A stretch of DNA of 20,695 nucleotides. Source: a virus. The stretch lies in IMG/VR virus record IMGVR_UViG_3300033273_000436, positions 1 to 20,695 of that record, one strand, 5' to 3'. The translations under genes and the position numbers were made by a program. The notes below the pieces were generated by a model. The model was given only the letters and a program-made list of their open reading frames with translations. It did no database searches and was not told the DNA's origin. Shown here one piece after another: positions 6,231-14,673 of this stretch (the stretch's first letter is position 1; every line of letters begins with the position of its first letter).

Positions 6231-6516
6231 AACCCCAGTGAAGAAGAGCAAACTGTCTACCTCTCTTGGGGGTACAGTAGAGGAGAATATTCCTGAGGAT
6301 GTTGTGTGGATCGATGATGCGTTCTACATCATGAAGACTCGATTCGGTATGCACACCAGCATCCTGAAGAACCCTCTGGGTGCACACTTCATCACTGGAC
6401 TTGAGTATGATACAGTGGTTGAAGTCACACGCTGGCATCTGAAATCGATTCAAGATGATGTTCTTGATGAGTACACCCGCGTGGTAAACGATGGTTTTGT
6501 TGGAGGCAAACTGTGA
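6223..6516 (+). CDS. Conserved small protein upstream of gp47, unknown function
   Basis: A 97-residue protein beginning MTETPVKKSKLSTSLGGTVE. The central part (IPEDVVWIDDAFYIMKTRFG, then a GLEYDTVVEVTRWHLKSIQ segment) looks like a compact alpha/beta fold. In-frame ATGs also exist at 6217 and a TTG at 6211; I choose 6223 because GAGG at 6213-6216 sits six bases in front of it. It overlaps the previous gene by 8 bases and its stop overlaps the gp47 GTG. No family recognised. Confidence 0.6.
   Translation: MTETPVKKSKLSTSLGGTVEENIPEDVVWIDDAFYIMKTRFGMHTSILKNPLGAHFITGLEYDTVVEVTRWHLKSIQDDVLDEYTRVVNDGFVGGKL
6502..6506 (+). promoter_or_regulatory. Shine-Dalgarno site setting the gp47 GTG start
   Basis: GGAGG at 6502-6506, six bases before GTG at 6513. 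This supports the non-ATG start of gp47, together with the GTGA overlap with the preceding stop. Confidence 0.75.
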
Positions 6517-7538
6517 GTAAAATCCTGTTGATCACGGATCAGCACTTTGGAGTTCGTAATGACAACCAAGTCTTTATAGACAAATATAATAAGTTTTATA
6601 GCAAAGTAGTCATTCCTTTCATTGACAAGTATGGTATAACCGATGTCATTGCCTTAGGAGATACCTTTGACAAACGCAAGAGTATCAACTTTAACTCACT
6701 TGACGCTGCAAAGGAGATGTGGTTCACCCCCCTCCAAGATCGTGGCGTGCATCTCACGATGCTGGTAGGTAACCATGATATCTACTACAAAAATACTCTA
6801 CGCATTAACTCTCCCGAACTTCTTCTCGGAGAATACGACAACATTACTGTCATCGATGAGCCTTGCCAACGTAATGTTGGTGGTCTTGATATACTTTTTC
6901 TGCCTTGGATTTGTGATGACAATCGAGAGCGATCTCGAATGGAAACGGAAAGCAGTAGTGCTACTGTCTGTATGGGGCATCTTGAGCTTAACGGTTTTGA
7001 ATCTATTCCTGGTCATTATATGGAGCATGGTGACGACCCATCCATATACGGAAAGTTTGATCTGGTCTGCTCAGGACATTTTCACATGAAGTCTCGGCAG
7101 GGTGTTGTGAACTATCTCGGCAACCCGTATCAACTCTACTGGGGAGATTATGGTCAGAAACGAGGGTTCCATGTCCTAAATACTGATACGTTAAAGTTAA
7201 CATTCTTGCCCAATCCGTATGACATCTTCCAAAAGGTGTACTACGATGACACTCGGGAGATCAAGTTCCCCAAAAATCTCAATGGTTCTTATGTCAAACT
7301 GATTGTAGAGAAGAAGACAGATCAAGTTATCTTTGATCAAACTATCAAACAACTTCAGAGTGCAGGATGTGCAGACCTCAAGATCATTGAAGATCTCACC
7401 GTAGATCTAGAAGATGTTGATGAAGCAATCGAAACGGAGGATACACTCACTACTCTTGAGCGGTGCGTCTCTGACCTAGACAATAAGGATGATATCTTCG
7501 CTATCTTAAAGTCCTTGTATTTGGAGGCGCAACAATAA
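6513..7538 (+). CDS. gp47: Recombination endonuclease subunit gp47 (Mre11-like)
   Basis: A 341-residue phosphoesterase/nuclease; T4 gp47 has 339. With gp46 it forms the phage Mre11-Rad50 complex that resects double-strand ends for recombination-dependent replication and degrades host DNA. Metal-binding motifs of the calcineurin-like fold are all visible: DQHFG at residues 9-13, GD at 49-50 in ALGDTFDKR, GNHD at 86-89, GHLE at about 155-158, and GHFH at 188-191. The start is GTG at 6513, backed by GGAGG six bases upstream. The stop shares a base with the next gene (TAATG). The gene is not next to gp46 directly: a DUF3110-like gene lies between them. Confidence 0.96.
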   Translation: MSKILLITDQHFGVRNDNQVFIDKYNKFYSKVVIPFIDKYGITDVIALGDTFDKRKSINFNSLDAAKEMWFTPLQDRGVHLTMLVGNHDIYYKNTLRINSPELLLGEYDNITVIDEPCQRNVGGLDILFLPWICDDNRERSRMETESSSATVCMGHLELNGFESIPGHYMEHGDDPSIYGKFDLVCSGHFHMKSRQGVVNYLGNPYQLYWGDYGQKRGFHVLNTDTLKLTFLPNPYDIFQKVYYDDTREIKFPKNLNGSYVKLIVEKKTDQVIFDQTIKQLQSAGCADLKIIEDLTVDLEDVDEAIETEDTLTTLERCVSDLDNKDDIFAILKSLYLEAQQ

Positions 7539-7810
7539 TGGCATATGTATTGACCGATAAAGCATCAGGCGGCGTGTTCGCAGTGACCGACCACCGAAAT
7601 GGTAATCGAATCATTACTATGTTTGTTGACAAAGACGACGCTGACAGGTATCATGGACTACTGGTAGCGAATGGTTTTACCAGACCGCTAGAAGTCTTGG
7701 AGATCGATCAAGAAACAGTTCAAGAGAACTGTGAAATCAATGACTATTCATACAGTGTGATCGAACCAGACGATATTATTATGCCCCCTGACGACTTAGA
7801 GGACGAATGA
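7538..7810 (+). CDS. DUF3110-like protein between gp47 and gp46
   Basis: A 90-residue protein. The central pattern, with IITMFVDKDDADRYHGLLVA followed by PLEVLEIDQETVQENCE, resembles the cyanobacterial DUF3110 family (VxxFEDEDDAxRYAxLLEAQ then EIDxEEIEEFC), a small family of unknown function found in cyanobacteria and plastid-bearing lineages. This match is from memory of the family consensus. The C-terminus is acidic (PPDDLEDE). The gene overlaps gp47 by one base and gp46 by four, so it is embedded in the nuclease operon and will be made together with both subunits; GGAGG lies at 7523-7527. A host origin and a role modulating the nuclease are both inference. Confidence 0.75.
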   Translation: MAYVLTDKASGGVFAVTDHRNGNRIITMFVDKDDADRYHGLLVANGFTRPLEVLEIDQETVQENCEINDYSYSVIEPDDIIMPPDDLEDE

Positions 7811-9519
7811 TTACTTTTGAAAAACTTCGTTGGAAAAACTTTCTGAGCACTGGTAACCAGTACATTGAAATGGATCTAACGAAGTCCCCTTCGACTCTCA
7901 TTATTGGATCTAATGGGGCAGGTAAGAGCACAATGTTGGACGCATTGTGCTTTGGTTTGTTTAACAAACCATTTAGGAAGATTAACAAACCTCAACTAGC
8001 AAACACGATCAACGAGAAAGAGTGTCGTGTTGAAGTTGAGTTCAAGATTGGCAGTGTAGAGTACAAAGTTGTCCGTGGGTTGAAACCCGCCGTCTTTGAA
8101 ATCTACCGCAATGGATCTTTGCTAGACCAAGATGCAGCGAATCGAGACTATCAGAAATACCTGGAGCAGAATGTACTTAAACTTAACTTCAAGTCTTTCA
8201 CTCAGGTTGTTATTCTTGGTAGTAGCACTTTTGTGCCTTTTATGCAGTTGCCTGCTGCACATCGAAGAGAAGTTATCGAAGATCTCCTAGACATTCAAGT
8301 CTTCTCTCAGATGAACGCAATCCTCAAGGATCGTGTGAAGGATGCAAAAGAAGAGATTGGCAAGTGCAATCATGAACTTGAACTTGCACAACAAGCAGTA
8401 GACCTCAAGACTGATAACATCAAGAATCTTGAACTGCAGTCCACTGCATACCTTGAGGAAAAGCAACTCAGACTGCAGAAAAATGTTGGTCGCATCTCTG
8501 AGATTGATACTGAAGTGGATTACCTACAAAGTATTGTCACTGAGATGGAACCAAAGGTTGTCAATCTTGATAATCTGAAAGAGCAGTACGATAAACTCAA
8601 AGAGTTTCGTACCAAGATCAAGCAGAACTTAGATCAAACTAAGAAGGGCAAAGAGTTCTACGAGAACAATGATCAGTGCCCCACATGCACTCAGACCATT
8701 GATGAAGTATGGAAGGCAGAGCAGTGTAAATCTTTGACTGAAAAGATTCAAAAATATGACTCAGGTGTGACTGACCTCACTGGTAAGATCAAAGGCATTC
8801 TTGCTAGCATTGATGAGGTTGAAACCGTCAACAAAGATCTTGTTGATAAGCGATACACCATCAACTCTCTTCTGAAAGAACAGTCACGTCTGCAACGTGA
8901 CAACGCTAAACTAGAAGATGAGATCAATGCTGGTTCTCCCAACATTGATAAGGAACGTGAGGTTCTGGATGGATTGCTCATGGCAAGTGAAGAGAAGCAG
9001 TTTGCATGTTCACAAATCAATAAGCGATTCAGTGATCTGAAAGTTGTTGGTAACTTGCTCAAGGACGGTGGCATCAAGACTAAGATCATCAAGAAGTTTG
9101 TTCCTACGATCAACCGCCACATCAACAAGTATCTGCAAGAGATGGACTTCTTCGTGAACTTCACTCTCGATGATGAGTTTAACGAAGTCATCAAGTCTAG
9201 GTTCCGCGATGTCTTCACTTATGCATCTTTCTCTGAAGGGGAGAAGCAGAAGATTGATCTAGCACTGCTGTTCACATGGCGACAGATTGCTAAACTCAAG
9301 AACAGTGTTTCCACAAACCTTCTGATTCTTGATGAAGTATTTGATTCTTCCCTAGATAGTGCAGCAACTGTTGATCTGCTTAAGATCCTCAAAGGACTTC
9401 CACAAAGCACCAACCTTTTTGTCATTTCACACAAAGGTGAAATCCTTCTGGATAAGTTCCACCGCACTGTGAGTTTTGAAAAACCAAATGACTTCTCTAA
9501 GATGACGGAGATTGAATAA
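7807..9519 (+). CDS. gp46: Recombination endonuclease subunit gp46 (Rad50-like)
   Basis: A 570-residue SMC/Rad50-type ATPase; T4 gp46 has 560. It partners gp47 in end resection. Visible parts in order: Walker A GSNGAGKST at residues 34-42, a long coiled-coil arm rich in Glu, Lys, Leu and Gln (about 165-430), the zinc hook CPTC at 291-294 in the middle of the arm, the ABC signature SEGEKQK starting at 476, and Walker B LLILDE at 505-510. All catalytic elements are intact. AGAGGA at 7798-7803 lies upstream of the ATG, which overlaps the DUF3110-like gene stop. The stop overlaps the next gene by one base. Confidence 0.97.
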   Translation: MITFEKLRWKNFLSTGNQYIEMDLTKSPSTLIIGSNGAGKSTMLDALCFGLFNKPFRKINKPQLANTINEKECRVEVEFKIGSVEYKVVRGLKPAVFEIYRNGSLLDQDAANRDYQKYLEQNVLKLNFKSFTQVVILGSSTFVPFMQLPAAHRREVIEDLLDIQVFSQMNAILKDRVKDAKEEIGKCNHELELAQQAVDLKTDNIKNLELQSTAYLEEKQLRLQKNVGRISEIDTEVDYLQSIVTEMEPKVVNLDNLKEQYDKLKEFRTKIKQNLDQTKKGKEFYENNDQCPTCTQTIDEVWKAEQCKSLTEKIQKYDSGVTDLTGKIKGILASIDEVETVNKDLVDKRYTINSLLKEQSRLQRDNAKLEDEINAGSPNIDKEREVLDGLLMASEEKQFACSQINKRFSDLKVVGNLLKDGGIKTKIIKKFVPTINRHINKYLQEMDFFVNFTLDDEFNEVIKSRFRDVFTYASFSEGEKQKIDLALLFTWRQIAKLKNSVSTNLLILDEVFDSSLDSAATVDLLKILKGLPQSTNLFVISHKGEILLDKFHRTVSFEKPNDFSKMTEIE

Positions 9520-9758
9520 TGGACACAGTAGTAATCTATTCAAACGGTAGTCAAGAGTGTGAGCGTATGGGTATGCTGCTTAAAGCACTTGGCGGTGAGT
9601 TCCACGAGTACATGTTAGGTCAGCACTTTACAGAACATCAGTTCCGTGGTGAGTTTGGTCCTGAAGCAACCTACCCACAAGTCTCTATCGGTATGAAACA
9701 TATCGGTAGTATGAAAGAAACCCTGCAGTATATGAGCGACAAAGGATTGTTTGTCTAA
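9519..9758 (+). CDS. Glutaredoxin-like protein lacking the first active-site Cys
   Basis: A 79-residue thioredoxin-fold protein. The start VVIYSNGSQECERMGMLLKA lines up with the glutaredoxin opening (VxIYTKPxCPYCxRAxxLL), and TYPQVSIG at 51-58 is the conserved cis-proline strand. In the usual CPYC motif the first Cys is the nucleophile; here that position is Ser11 and only the second, Cys14, is present (S-Q-E-C). It may therefore bind glutathione or a partner without normal dithiol chemistry. Cyanophage relatives are usually annotated glutaredoxin. It follows gp46 with a one-base overlap. Confidence 0.8.
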   Translation: MDTVVIYSNGSQECERMGMLLKALGGEFHEYMLGQHFTEHQFRGEFGPEATYPQVSIGMKHIGSMKETLQYMSDKGLFV

Positions 9759-9990: not shown

Positions 9991-10176
9991 GTGACTACGC
10001 CGACCACGCCAAACTGGCAACACCACTCTAAGAAGGACAAACACGGCAAGGGCACTTGCAAGGGGAGAATCCGAGCAAGCAAGCAGCGCCTCAGACACTT
10101 GAAAAACCGTCTACACAAGACCTCCGACCTGCGTCGGGGGTCTTATAGTATATGGGTAACCGAGACAGAGACATGA
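9991..10176 (+). CDS. Doubtful small basic ORF
   Basis: A possible 61-residue, very basic protein from a GTG start (first residues TTPTTPNWQHHSKKDKHGKG). The stretch CKGRIRASKQRLRHLKNRLH looks like a genuine basic amphipathic helix and might bind nucleic acid. Against it: the start is GTG, the AGAGGAG at 9966-9972 is 18 bases away, the last third of the ORF is overlaid by a strong hairpin (10117-10144), and its end overlaps the start of the cobT-like gene. It could be real with read-through of the hairpin, or a chance frame in a regulatory leader. Confidence 0.4.
   Translation: MTTPTTPNWQHHSKKDKHGKGTCKGRIRASKQRLRHLKNRLHKTSDLRRGSYSIWVTETET
10117..10144 (+). terminator. Strong hairpin, probable terminator before cobT
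   Basis: A 12-bp stem (AAGACCTCCGAC at 10117-10128 with GTCGGGGGTCTT at 10133-10144, one G-U pair) closed by a four-base loop CTGC. It ends in TCTTAT rather than a long T run, so termination may be partial; it could also act as an RNA stability element or attenuator in front of cobT. The free energy should be high for so short a hairpin. Confidence 0.65.
10144..10154 (+). promoter_or_regulatory. Possible -10 region for the cobT-like gene
   Basis: TATAGTATATG directly after the hairpin contains a -10-like TATAGT (10144-10149). No -35 is visible because that region is the hairpin. If used, transcription would begin near 10156, downstream of the ATG at 10152 but upstream of the ATG at 10173. 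Similar strings occur at 1250 and 14361. Confidence 0.35.
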
Positions 10177-12344
10177 CCACCACTCCCGACATCAAAGGTA
10201 CACTCGCCCGTTTGCTTGCCACCGAGAACCTGATTGTTGAGCACGCTGTATGCGACACTGCATCCTTTGACGTTGACCGTCGTGTGCTCAAGTTGCCCAT
10301 TTGGAAAGATCTGGACAACGATACCTATGACCTGCTCGTCGGTCATGAGGTTGGTCATGCTCTGTTCACTCCTCCCAGCAGTGAGTATGAGGTGCCTGAT
10401 GACATTCCCAAGTCTTACGTCAATGTGACAGAGGATGCTCGTATAGAGAAACACATGAAGACTAAGTTCCCTGGTCTGGGCAAGTCCTTCTATCGTGGTT
10501 ACAACAACCTGCATAACAAAGACTTCTTTGGTATCAGGGATCGTGATCTCAACAAACTCAAACTGATTGACCGCATCAACCTGCACTGCAAGATCGGTGC
10601 CTATGCAATGATCCCCATCAGCGCAGAGGAACAACAGTATCTCGATCTGGTCAAGCAGTCCGAGACCTTTGACGATGCAGTAATCGCTGCTCGCGTACTG
10701 TGGGACCTGCAGAAGCAAGGACGCGAGAAGCAGCAGGACGCACCTGCTGCCAACGACGACTCTGAGAAGGATGGTGTCAGTGGTGAGTCTGAGCAGGAAA
10801 GCAATCCTGTTGAGTATGTCAACGATGACAACGGTCAGCAGTCCGACAGCAACAATGATGATTCTGACGATGCCGATCTGGATATGCCCTCCTACGAGCA
10901 GGGTGGTTTTGATGAGGCAGAGACTGATACCAATCTTACAGACAACCTTGCAAACGCTGCATCCAAGAACTCTTGGGATGAACCTCGCTACGTTGAGATT
11001 GACAATCCCGATCTCAAGCGTGTGATCACTCCTATGAAGTGGGTGCGCGAGAACATTCGTCAGTTCTGGAATCAGATTGATGAAGATCGCAAGAGGTTGG
11101 AGAGCGACTGCCTTGACTTCACCCTTCTGGATGCAGAGTTCAATAAGTTCAACGACTCCACCAACCGTGAGGTGAACTATCTCGTTAAGGAGTTCGAGAT
11201 GAAGAAGTCTGCAGCATCCTATGCACGTCAGACGGTATCCCGCACTGGTGTTCTTGACACTCGTAAAATACATACTTACAAGTTCAATGAAGATCTCTTC
11301 AAGAAGATCACTTCTACCCCTGACGGCAAGAACCATGGTCTGATCTTCATGCTTGACTGGTCTGGTTCTATGTCAGATCACATCTATGAGACCGTTAAGC
11401 AACTGTTGTCTCTTGCATACTTCTGCCGCAAAGTCAACATCCCCTTCACCGTGTACTCCTTTGTGTATGATCATTACCTGACTACACTGAGTCTTGCTGA
11501 TGATGAGGTTTCCCAACCTCTGACTGACAAGCGTGATCACACCATGGTGTTTGATGAGTCATTCCACCTGATTACTCTGCTTGACAGTGAGTCAAACAAG
11601 CGTGACTTCACAGAGTCGGCAAAGCATCTGTTCCGTATCGCATACCAGTATGGTGTTCGCAACTGGGATTATGCTCGTCAGTCTCGTTGGAATCACATTC
11701 CTGTCCCTGGGTTCATGCAGTTGGGTGGCACTCCTCTTAATGAGGCAATCGCTACTCTGCCTGCTCTGATTCCTGCATTTCGTGCTCAGCATGGTGTTGA
11801 GAAACTCAACGTTGTCATCTTGACTGACGGTGAGTCCAACTCCTCCTCTGAGTGGGTGCACAAGGATTACACTCGGACTGATGGTGAGACGGTCAGTACC
11901 ATCTTCTGTTCTGCTATTCGTGACAACACTCGTCTCCGCCATCGTGGCACTGGTCGTGTGTTCCGTGAAACCAGCTGGCACTACCAGTTCACTGATGCAC
12001 TCCTAGACTATGTTCAGGCAGTGTATAAGGATGTCAACATTCTTGGATTCCGTATCGGAACTGCTCGTGAGTGCACCCGTGTGATCACAAACTACCTGGG
12101 TTTCAGCGGCGACAAGTCATTCAAAACCCAAACCGAGTTTAGGAAGAACCGTTCTGTGAGCATCACTGAAACTGGGTATGAAGAGTTGTACTTGATTGCT
12201 TCCTCTGTGCTGGATAACGATGTAGACTTTGATGTGAAGGAGGATGCTACCAAGTCTCAGATCCGTTCTGCATTCCGCAAGACGCTCAAGGGCAAAGCAG
12301 CAAACAAGAAAATCCTTTCGTCGTTCGTTTCCAAGATCACATGA
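10173..12344 (+). CDS. cobT: CobT-like protein: HExxH metalloprotease plus VWA domain
   Basis: A 723-residue protein in two halves. The N-terminal half has HEVGH at 58-62 and, about 25 residues on, NVTEDAR (84-90), the layout of a zinc metalloprotease (two His plus a downstream Glu). Residues about 185-255 are a highly acidic low-complexity linker. The C-terminal half is a von Willebrand A domain with a complete metal-binding MIDAS: DWSGS at 395-399, a downstream Thr in GGTPLNEA, and LTDGES. CobT of aerobic cobaltochelatase and MoxR-partner proteins share this VWA domain, and a CobS/MoxR-type ATPase is encoded nearby at 13252. An in-frame ATG at 10152 would add seven residues; I prefer 10173 because 10152 sits in a possible -10 box. 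True cobalt insertion is doubtful: no CobN is seen, and the protease motif suggests protein remodelling. Confidence 0.85.
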   Translation: MTTTPDIKGTLARLLATENLIVEHAVCDTASFDVDRRVLKLPIWKDLDNDTYDLLVGHEVGHALFTPPSSEYEVPDDIPKSYVNVTEDARIEKHMKTKFPGLGKSFYRGYNNLHNKDFFGIRDRDLNKLKLIDRINLHCKIGAYAMIPISAEEQQYLDLVKQSETFDDAVIAARVLWDLQKQGREKQQDAPAANDDSEKDGVSGESEQESNPVEYVNDDNGQQSDSNNDDSDDADLDMPSYEQGGFDEAETDTNLTDNLANAASKNSWDEPRYVEIDNPDLKRVITPMKWVRENIRQFWNQIDEDRKRLESDCLDFTLLDAEFNKFNDSTNREVNYLVKEFEMKKSAASYARQTVSRTGVLDTRKIHTYKFNEDLFKKITSTPDGKNHGLIFMLDWSGSMSDHIYETVKQLLSLAYFCRKVNIPFTVYSFVYDHYLTTLSLADDEVSQPLTDKRDHTMVFDESFHLITLLDSESNKRDFTESAKHLFRIAYQYGVRNWDYARQSRWNHIPVPGFMQLGGTPLNEAIATLPALIPAFRAQHGVEKLNVVILTDGESNSSSEWVHKDYTRTDGETVSTIFCSAIRDNTRLRHRGTGRVFRETSWHYQFTDALLDYVQAVYKDVNILGFRIGTARECTRVITNYLGFSGDKSFKTQTEFRKNRSVSITETGYEELYLIASSVLDNDVDFDVKEDATKSQIRSAFRKTLKGKAANKKILSSFVSKIT

Positions 12345-12850
12345 ACATCTTTGCAGTTGATGAAGATCCAGTTCTGGCAGCAGGTATGTTGCCAGACAAG
12401 CACATCGTCAAGATGCCATTAGAAACGGCACAGATGTTGGCGATTATCTATAGTCCTCACTATCATGATATCGCCCCCCTTTTCAAAGCGGACGGAACAG
12501 TGTATAATACTAAAAAGGGTGCCTTCAAAAATCATCCTTGTACTAAGTGGGCAGCAGCAACCAAACATAATATCGCTTGGTTAATCGAACATGGTCTAGC
12601 ACTATGTCACGAGTACACCTATCGATACGGTAAGGTTCATGCTTGTCAGAACACAATCGAGATGGCAAACATTATGTGGAGTGGTGCATGTTCTAACAAG
12701 CATTCTCCATTTGTTCGTGCCATGCCCGATGAGTACAAACTTGATACCAGCATTGACACGGTGACTGCGTATCGCATGTATGTTGCTTCAAAACCCTGGG
12801 CAGCGGGCAACTATCTTCGCAAACCTGATCGCAAACCTGATTGGATATGA
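12341..12850 (+). CDS. Conserved phage protein with HxxK/HPC motifs, unknown function
   Basis: A 169-residue protein. It carries a set of polar residues that look catalytic or metal-binding: DKHIVKMPLETAQML near residues 19-33, NHPCTKWAA near 64-72, and LCHEYTYRYGKVHAC near 88-102. The C-terminal part has MPDEYK and an AYRMYVASK segment ending in a Lys/Arg/Pro-rich tail. I recall relatives with the same KMxLExAQxL and HPCxxW motifs in many tailed phages, without a known function. It overlaps cobT and speD by four bases each (ATGA), so it belongs to the same transcript. Confidence 0.75.
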   Translation: MNIFAVDEDPVLAAGMLPDKHIVKMPLETAQMLAIIYSPHYHDIAPLFKADGTVYNTKKGAFKNHPCTKWAAATKHNIAWLIEHGLALCHEYTYRYGKVHACQNTIEMANIMWSGACSNKHSPFVRAMPDEYKLDTSIDTVTAYRMYVASKPWAAGNYLRKPDRKPDWI

Positions 12851-13182
12851 GACACATCCTCTTCACCCTCAAAGGGTGTTCTGCTGTCCTTCTTGATGAC
12901 GAACAATATATTCGGGATGTCATCTATCATGCCAGCGTAAAGTGTGGGTCCACACTTCTTTCGTTGAACTCTCATAAGTTTAATCCTCAAGGTGTAACTT
13001 GTGTTGCCATGTTGGCAGAGAGTCATATTAGTATTCACACTTGGCCAGAGTTAGGCATGGCAGTGTGTGATGTTTTCACCTGTGGTGATCACACCAAACC
13101 CCAGGACGGGGTGGACTACATGTACTCCATGATGCACGCTACCAACGTGGTCAGTCAGGAGTTCAGGAGACCACTTGCCTAA
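12847..13182 (+). CDS. speD: S-adenosylmethionine decarboxylase SpeD
   Basis: A 111-residue pyruvoyl enzyme making decarboxylated SAM, the aminopropyl donor for spermidine synthesis. The signature AESHISIHTWPE lies at residues 57-68: the proenzyme cuts itself between Glu58 and Ser59, and Ser59 becomes the pyruvoyl group; His64 and Cys79 (in DVFTCG) match the processing and catalytic residues. The length fits the short prokaryotic form. I start at the ATG at 12847, which overlaps the previous stop; a TTG two codons earlier is less likely. speD is a known auxiliary gene of cyanophages; polyamines may help DNA packaging or protect host photosystems, which is inference. Confidence 0.95.
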   Translation: MRHILFTLKGCSAVLLDDEQYIRDVIYHASVKCGSTLLSLNSHKFNPQGVTCVAMLAESHISIHTWPELGMAVCDVFTCGDHTKPQDGVDYMYSMMHATNVVSQEFRRPLA

Positions 13183-13229: not shown

Positions 13230-13251
13230 TGGGTAATCAACAGAACAACAC

Positions 13252-14355
13252 ATGCCTCGCCTTTCTAACGTGACCACTGAAGACCTGATCTCTTACCTGA
13301 CCAGCACCTTTGGTCCTGAAGTTTCGACTGCAAACCTTGTTGCTGCCTCTGATCACTTCGGTGTGTCTTACCCCACCGTTACCAAGCGTCTTGACCAGTA
13401 CAAGTCTGGTCGTGGCAAGTGGGACCTGACTGTTCAAGAAGTCCGTGAGCAACTGGAGCAACAACTCTCCAACCACGTTACCGTACAGGAAAATGCCAAC
13501 TTGATTCCGCAAGAAGATAGTAACTTTGTCCCGTTCGGGAACTTCCGCGATGTTAAGAAGATCATCAAGTCCAACATCTTCTACCCCATATTCATCACTG
13601 GTCTCTCTGGCAACGGTAAGACCTTCTCCGTGGAGCAAGCATGTGCTCAACTGGGTCGTGAACTGATTCGCGTCAACATTACCATCGAAACGGATGAAGA
13701 TGATCTTATTGGCGGTTTCCGTCTGGTTGACGGTAATACTGTTTGGCACAATGGACCTGTTATTGAGGCACTTGAGCGAGGTGCTGTTCTCCTCCTTGAT
13801 GAGATTGACCTCGCAAGCAACAAGATTCTTTGTCTCCAGTCTGTTCTGGAAGGCAAGGGCATTTTCCTGAAGAAGATCGGTCGCTATGTCACTCCTGCTA
13901 GTGGTTTTACTGTGGTCGCTACTGCTAACACTAAAGGTAAGGGGTCGGAAGACGGTCGGTTCGTCGGAACCAACGTCCTCAACGAAGCATTCCTTGAGCG
14001 ATTCCCCCTGACCTTTGAGCAAGAGTATCCCACCCCCTCCGTGGAGAACAAAATGCTCCACAACTATTGCAAAGAACTCAACTGCTGCGAAGAGTCCTTC
14101 ATCAACTCTCTCGTTGCCTGGGCAGACATCATCCGCAAGACCTTCGCTGAAGGTGGTGTTGATGAGGTAATCTCTACCCGCCGTCTGGTGCACATCATCC
14201 GTGCCTTTGCTATCTTCGGTGACCGTCTCAAGGCAATCAAGGTCTGCCTCAACCGTTTCGACGACGAGACCAAACAATCTTTCATCGAACTGTATGATAA
14301 GATTGACTCTGAGGTTGATACTGCCAATGTCCTCACCGATGTTGCACCTTTCTGA
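13252..14355 (+). CDS. cobS: CobS-like AAA+ ATPase (MoxR family)
   Basis: A 367-residue AAA+ ATPase, the gene called cobS in cyanophages. Residues 28-46 look like a helix-turn-helix (ASDHFGVSYPTVTKRL), then a linker, then the ATPase core: Walker A GLSGNGKT at 117-124, Walker B VLLLDEID at 179-186, sensor 1 ATAN at 223-226, and an arginine-finger region near Arg250. CobS is one subunit of aerobic cobaltochelatase, but the same family (MoxR) works with VWA proteins to remodel or mature targets. The nearby VWA/HExxH protein at 10173 is the natural partner. No Shine-Dalgarno is visible, and codons are strongly biased as in gp23. ATPase identity is certain; the cobalamin role is doubtful. Confidence 0.92.
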   Translation: MPRLSNVTTEDLISYLTSTFGPEVSTANLVAASDHFGVSYPTVTKRLDQYKSGRGKWDLTVQEVREQLEQQLSNHVTVQENANLIPQEDSNFVPFGNFRDVKKIIKSNIFYPIFITGLSGNGKTFSVEQACAQLGRELIRVNITIETDEDDLIGGFRLVDGNTVWHNGPVIEALERGAVLLLDEIDLASNKILCLQSVLEGKGIFLKKIGRYVTPASGFTVVATANTKGKGSEDGRFVGTNVLNEAFLERFPLTFEQEYPTPSVENKMLHNYCKELNCCEESFINSLVAWADIIRKTFAEGGVDEVISTRRLVHIIRAFAIFGDRLKAIKVCLNRFDDETKQSFIELYDKIDSEVDTANVLTDVAPF

Positions 14356-14370
14356 AAAACGTAGTACACT
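14342..14370 (+). promoter_or_regulatory. Weak sigma70-like promoter before the gp45 operon
   Basis: TTGCAC at 14342-14347, a 17-base spacer and TACACT at 14365-14370. Both hexamers are partial matches (three and four of six), and the -35 overlaps the end of cobS. GTAGTACACT resembles the box at 1250. Correct spacing is the main support. Confidence 0.35.
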
Positions 14371-14385
14371 TAACCAAGTCTGATT

Positions 14386-14673
14386 ATGGCAATGAAGTAC
14401 AGTGAAGATACCATTCTTGAGGAACTGCGTGCCTATGTGCTGAGCACATACGGTCAACACTATTCCTCAGGTAATGATTCTATCCAGACACTTGATTTGA
14501 TAGAAGCATGTGGTGATGCAGAAGCATTCTGCCGAAGCAACATCCTCAAATATGCTTCTCGCTACGACAAGAAGGGTACCGCCCGCAGAGACATTATTAA
14601 GATTCTGCACTACGGTATGCTTCTTCTCCACTTCAACGACAAAAACGCACAAACTGAAACGTATCCTCAATGA
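14386..14673 (+). CDS. DUF3310-like phage protein
   Basis: A 95-residue helical protein. The central pattern, IEACGDAEAFCRSNILKYAS then RYDKKGTARRDIIKILHY, fits the small phage family DUF3310 (IExx..DxEAFxxGNxIKYxxRxxKKxGxxDLxKAxxY), which is widespread in tailed phages and sometimes called a putative nucleotide kinase, without solid proof. The match is from memory of the family pattern. It lies about 30 bases after cobS and overlaps the gp45 start by four bases, so it leads the clamp and clamp loader transcript. Confidence 0.75.
   Translation: MAMKYSEDTILEELRAYVLSTYGQHYSSGNDSIQTLDLIEACGDAEAFCRSNILKYASRYDKKGTARRDIIKILHYGMLLLHFNDKNAQTETYPQ

Follow-up and report, generated by a model that had tools for sequence, protein, structure and literature searches.

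The gene lying between the nuclease subunit genes gp47 and gp46 in this phage belongs to the cyanobacterial family DUF3110, and marine T4-like cyanophages in general share its embedding at this site, which is no peculiarity of this phage. Considering the predicted fold, which resembles one half of Tic22, together with the fixed genomic place, we give a probability of roughly 40% to the reading that the product is a cytoplasmic, single-domain peptide-binding protein of the Tic22 type, serving as a chaperone-like accessory of the gp46/gp47 nuclease. Nearly all marine T4-like cyanophages carry the gene and no function for it is in print. If true, this reading would provide the first lead for DUF3110, which occurred as a single gene in every genome searched from the picocyanobacterial order (61/61). 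The gene itself is already known and widespread: the copies of marine T4-like cyanophages (syn9 gp147; NC_028663, NC_015285 and NC_021530, whose earlier annotation labels the gene DUF3110) have the same family (phrog_470 / DUF3110), size and place as the one described here. The present analysis adds the fold, the dnaK-dnaJ neighbourhood in the host, the single split between phage and host copies and the strict synteny. No publication connecting DUF3110 with Tic22 or with gp46/47 came up in a literature search.

The window, that is, the whole analysed stretch of 20,695 nucleotides (IMG/VR record IMGVR_UViG_3300033273_000436), contains the gene at positions 7538..7810 of the plus strand, with an ATG start and a product of 90 aa. 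This open reading frame matched Pfam DUF3110 (PF11360) with an E value of 1.3e-13 and 51.4 bits, against a gathering cut-off of 20.2, and covered positions 11-84 of the 84 profile positions; the DUF3110 likeness named in the original prediction was thus borne out by profile comparison. Through PHROGs it was assigned to phrog_470 (function unknown) with an E value of 1.6e-29. The NCBIfam search with the protein gave a chance match only, and the sequence search of solved structures a single chance match at E 0.98. Comparison with close relatives yielded dN 0.019 and dS 0.78 against L002 (ratio about 0.02), and dN 0.044 and dS 0.29 against L004 and L005 (ratio about 0.15). With dN so low relative to dS the frame behaves as a translated gene: it is genuine and evolves under purifying selection. 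A conserved core, F-V-DKDDADRY, is encoded by codons 29-38 (7622..7651, plus strand). F29 and the residues DKDDADRY (31-38) were invariant across alignment A1, which is composed of 24 phage and host rows including three host rows, while the core is looser in wider sets, reading EEDDAERY in S-B05 and FESEDDATRF among the host rows.

The upstream neighbour, gp47 (6513..7538, plus strand; phrog_100, E 2.4e-126), is an SbcD/Mre11-like nuclease subunit, and the downstream neighbour, gp46 (7807..9519, plus strand; phrog_77, E 3e-181), is an SbcC/Rad50-like ATPase subunit. The DUF3110 gene overlaps both of them, as had been read from the letters at the outset, and that reading of the sequence was correct in every factual point. 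In the plus-strand motif TAATG (7536..7540) the stop codon of gp47 (TAA, 7536-7538) shares one base with the DUF3110 start codon (ATG at 7538), and in ATGA (7807..7810, plus strand) the DUF3110 stop codon (TGA, 7808-7810) and the gp46 start codon (ATG at 7807) overlap by four bases. The overlaps had also been taken as a sign of coupled translation and hence of equal dosage with the nuclease. The overlaps are real, but the dosage part is weakened: in a hand-made list of 25 window genes, 14 of the 24 junctions overlap likewise, ten by four bases and four by one, and the DUF3110 gene has a Shine-Dalgarno-like GGAGG of its own (7523..7527, plus strand) within the 3' end of gp47, ten bases before its ATG. 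Since overlaps of one or four bases are common in the window, the step from overlap to equal dosage is a weak one, and the conserved position is a better argument than the overlaps for a link with gp46/gp47.

This position was followed in a pool of 205 viral loci, obtained from four IMG/VR scans and from annotated records. Five incomplete loci were dropped before the count, and the 200 complete copies corresponded to 109 distinct proteins. All 109 were placed between gp47 and gp46, in a sample that was non-random in that the IMG/VR loci were the best matches of the queries and the divergent records were picked for low identity. The gene is accordingly linked to both nuclease subunits across the group, as would be expected of an accessory subunit, and the original claim about its place holds well beyond the window. 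In 108 of the 109 copies gp47 reached at most 10 bases into the DUF3110 gene or stopped up to 3 bases short of it, with the exact 1-base overlap in 96; in S-SKS1 one 56-aa ORF separates the two genes. For 105 of the 109, gp46 started at a spacing between -32 and +2 bases, the value being -4 in 44 copies and -14 in 51. In L078 (P-SSM5) and L284 gp46 starts as usual and its frame breaks off some 97 and 124 codons in, respectively; the break in P-SSM5 is an annotated gap. Two loci contained homing-endonuclease-like ORFs between DUF3110 and gp46 (L268:4319-4774 and L273:3782-4330; HNH-type and GIY-YIG-type, judged by eye), with both genes intact. Relatives lying away from gp46/47, which the original prediction had named as the observation that would speak against it, were not found by four queries of the phage records or in IMG/VR. 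Among the other neighbours, 42 of 43 loci had gp55 at most 2.5 kb upstream, the phrog_744 gene before gp47 recurred in 10 of 43, and the thioredoxin-domain, glutaredoxin-like gene directly after gp46 (9519-9758 in the window) was in the same place in only 2 of 42.

When the window protein was used as tblastn query, 455 of 50,697 phage records were matched (E up to 10). Identity to the window protein was below 60% in all 455, and it reached 96% in IMG/VR contigs. The S-B05 copy as query matched 467 records, comprising 374 Synechococcus, 61 Cyanophage, 24 Prochlorococcus and 8 Marine records. Weak matches to Vibrio phages and to a Marinitoga virus (E 9-10) were taken as chance. For gp47, 376 Synechococcus and 61 Cyanophage records were matched; the similar numbers, in lists compared by count and not record by record, indicate that the gene is present in nearly every T4-like cyanophage.

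DUF3110 was found in none of four whole genomes outside the cyanophages, namely T4, Stenotrophomonas phage Ps15, Vibrio phage D525 and Acinetobacter phage DLP3. As the original prediction stated, unrelated small ORFs lie between genes 47 and 46 of T4; they are 46.2 and 46.1, which Pfam assigned to T4_Y03C and DUF5487. They fill the same gap and are small like the DUF3110 gene, but their families differ, and the DUF3110 profile gave no meaningful score on them. Small unrelated genes also occupy the site in Vibrio phage D525 and Acinetobacter phage DLP3; the gap genes of the T4, Vibrio and Acinetobacter phages were rejected as DUF3110 members. In the Menderavirus Ps15, the closest other T4-like phage examined, gp47 and gp46 overlap with nothing between them, and therefore the nuclease can do without a DUF3110 protein. 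A site that holds unrelated small genes in T4, D525 and DLP3, and beside which homing endonucleases have entered, might suggest that DUF3110 is a neutral passenger, kept since the overlapping ends make deletion costly. The strong purifying selection argues against such a passenger, as does the finding of the gene in almost every record of the group; we consider this reading very improbable.

The predicted structure is suggestive of one half of Tic22, a holdase chaperone of plastids and cyanobacteria. An AlphaFold2 model of the phage protein, based on the 24-row alignment, had a pLDDT of 87.6 and a pTM of 0.75, and its predicted elements follow the order strand-strand-strand-helix-strand-helix-strand, resembling one Tic22 half. 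The model of a host copy was poor (pLDDT 59.8). In a Foldseek search with the predicted phage fold, Tic22 structures ranked first with E values of 4e-3 to 5e-3 (best 4.4e-3). VIA-align gave Z scores over 76-77 residues of 9.2 for 4e6z, 8.7 for 8xks_I, 8.4 for 8xqw_Q and 7.5 for 4ev1; these values lie in the range that the program rates as middling to fair, and according to its own note a top Z of 7 to 8 is typical of models lacking a clear match. These top four chains are Tic22 of Plasmodium, Tic22 of Anabaena and one subunit apiece from two Chlamydomonas FtsHi motor complexes; from their ranking alongside Tic22, 8xks_I and 8xqw_Q would be Tic22-like subunits. Thermus TTHA0547 (function unknown) followed with a Z of 7.4, and the next unrelated fold reached 4.3, AcrIC9 being among the rows at that value.

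Profile comparison between phage DUF3110 and cyanobacterial Tic22 lent weak support to this likeness, with a score of 29.1 (P 6e-4) over the whole domain. The controls remained lower, at no more than 16.4 in 100 column shuffles, 12.1 for the reversed profile and 11.5-14.9 for the profiles of gp47, gp46 and gp55, and the second-best alignment landed on the second Tic22 half. Against Tic22, hhalign returned a probability of 28% with the phage sequences, 18% with all sequences and 0.8% with the host sequences alone. A Pfam-A scan of the window protein up to E 10 returned DUF3110 alone, the Tic22 model (PF04278) being unmatched. The best matches in a viral structure library were other cyanophage copies, one of which is named 'Tic22-like family protein' (E 3e-8). 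It comes from Synechococcus phage S-SCSM1 (YP_010669744), where the gene is likewise placed between gp47 and gp46. Tic22 occurs only in the name of that record, and the main text of the S-SCSM1 paper does not mention it (PMC9602691).

Two differences from Tic22 were observed. Tic22 is composed of two tandem halves, whereas phage DUF3110 is one domain of 90 aa; and Tic22 has a signal-sequence-like start (by eye, in 17 cyanobacterial ORFs longer than 200 residues), which is not seen in the window protein. In one cyanobacterium (L071) two DUF3110 domains were found in a single 315-codon frame, a two-half arrangement as in Tic22. Two papers (PMC3652856, PMC12895209), which relay claims of Tripp 2012 and Glaser 2012, report that Tic22 acts as a holdase and has non-polar grooves, and in a published analysis the Tic22 family is listed with the peptide-binding chaperones. 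Judged from the model, phage DUF3110 perhaps works like half a Tic22.

Across the phylum, DUF3110 was found in 63 of the 146 genomes drawn. In marine picocyanobacteria (L043-L045 and L161-L189) all 32 loci have dnaJ directly upstream of DUF3110 in the same orientation, and dnaK precedes dnaJ in 31 of them; Pfam confirmed Hsp70, DnaJ and DUF3110 in L043. The gene after DUF3110 in 18 of these 32 loci (flanks mostly 1.5 kb) encodes a SIS-domain protein, which we take to be murQ-like. Among the 30 best-scoring loci of other cyanobacteria, dnaJ was beside DUF3110 in none and the murQ-like gene followed in 25. Cyanobacterial DUF3110 and the phage copy have in common the Pfam family (PF11360), the DKDDADRY core and the domain length. 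They differ in about eight extra residues before the last PP (by eye), present in picocyanobacteria and absent from the phage copies, and in location, the host gene following dnaK-dnaJ or preceding the murQ-like gene and the phage gene standing between gp47 and gp46.

The host neighbourhood might also speak for an action on the host, with the phage protein as a copy of a proteostasis factor that tunes DnaK-DnaJ or thylakoid protein upkeep, and with the gp47-gp46 place as an old insertion kept for operon timing. Such an action would agree with the dnaJ linkage and with the core common to the host and phage rows of A1. It would further agree with the conserved dnaK3-dnaJ3 cluster, tied to thylakoids in a published study (PMC7281324), if the picocyanobacterial dnaK is dnaK3. 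However, host-derived auxiliary genes such as talC and cp12 are usually mobile among cyanophages, according to another study (PMC3037559), and DUF3110 is fixed in 109 of 109 copies; we regard an action on the host as possible but rather unlikely. In a published account, DUF3110 covaries with photosystem genes in marine metagenomes, as both occur in cyanophages.

We favour the chaperone-like accessory of the nuclease. The holdase grooves of Tic22, the dnaK-dnaJ genes beside the host copy and the constant position within the nuclease operon, taken together, suggest a small peptide-binding helper in the assembly or control of gp46/gp47, whereby we infer the binding partner from the genomic place. 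The protein would act on the Rad50/Mre11-like nuclease by binding an exposed segment of one subunit while all three are being translated next to one another, and the nuclease complex might then assemble correctly, or stay restrained until needed. Because host DUF3110 probably partners the DnaK-DnaJ pair, the phage protein may pass nuclease subunits to the host chaperones. The partial distance correlation of DUF3110, calculated from 45 of 54 distinct copies with all four genes plus the window, was 0.30 with gp47 (9 of 1000 permutations as high), 0.26 with gp46 (5 of 1000) and 0.11 with gp55 (119 of 1000); as neighbouring genes share their history, the values for gp46 and gp47 are confounded by linkage.

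The strict adjacency to gp47 and gp46 would equally suit a third subunit or an acidic regulator of the nuclease acting without any chaperone function, for example by shielding phage DNA or guiding the nuclease, as the original prediction proposed. The window protein is indeed strongly acidic, with a net charge of -15, and the median over the 109 distinct viral copies is -13. On the other hand, gp46 or gp47 matches (E 1e-2) were found near host DUF3110, whose members are D/E-rich by eye, in 0 of 65 loci (flanks mostly 1.5 kb), which argues against an origin of the family together with such a nuclease. A role of this kind appears unlikely to us, and the chaperone-like accessory role is more likely than targeting of the nuclease to host DNA.

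In a tree built from 118 rows (55 phage, 63 host; 101 columns), the two groups were split by one branch with 100/100 support. Repeated captures from hosts were rejected on account of this branch. The tree is unrooted, so the direction of transfer cannot be read from it; the splitting branch measures 3.3 changes per column, and the inner order is limited by the small number of columns and by some long branches. One old transfer between cyanobacteria and cyanophages would be the simplest reading of the tree, and it may instead have proceeded from phage to host. We might speculate, as a tentative scenario with the odds somewhat against it, that DUF3110 is a family of cytoplasmic half-Tic22 chaperones, coupled to DnaK-DnaJ in marine picocyanobacteria, that was taken once by an ancestor of the T4-like cyanophages and became an obligate third component of the Rad50/Mre11-like nuclease.

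Several other genes of the window were also noted. An S-adenosylmethionine decarboxylase-like gene is located at 12841-13182 (phrog_3125, E 9.9e-52). The gene at 10152-12344 is assigned to the 'peptidase' phrog_459, carries the motif HEVGHALF and weakly resembles a cobalamin-biosynthesis family, and that at 13252-14355 encodes an ATPase filed under porphyrin biosynthesis, its phrog_249 being cobS of other records; the phrog_459 protein and the phrog_249 ATPase may form a working pair. On the minus strand two long open antisense frames, at 10143-11336 (397 codons) and 13237-14460 (407 codons), lie opposite real genes and are probably by-products of codon usage.
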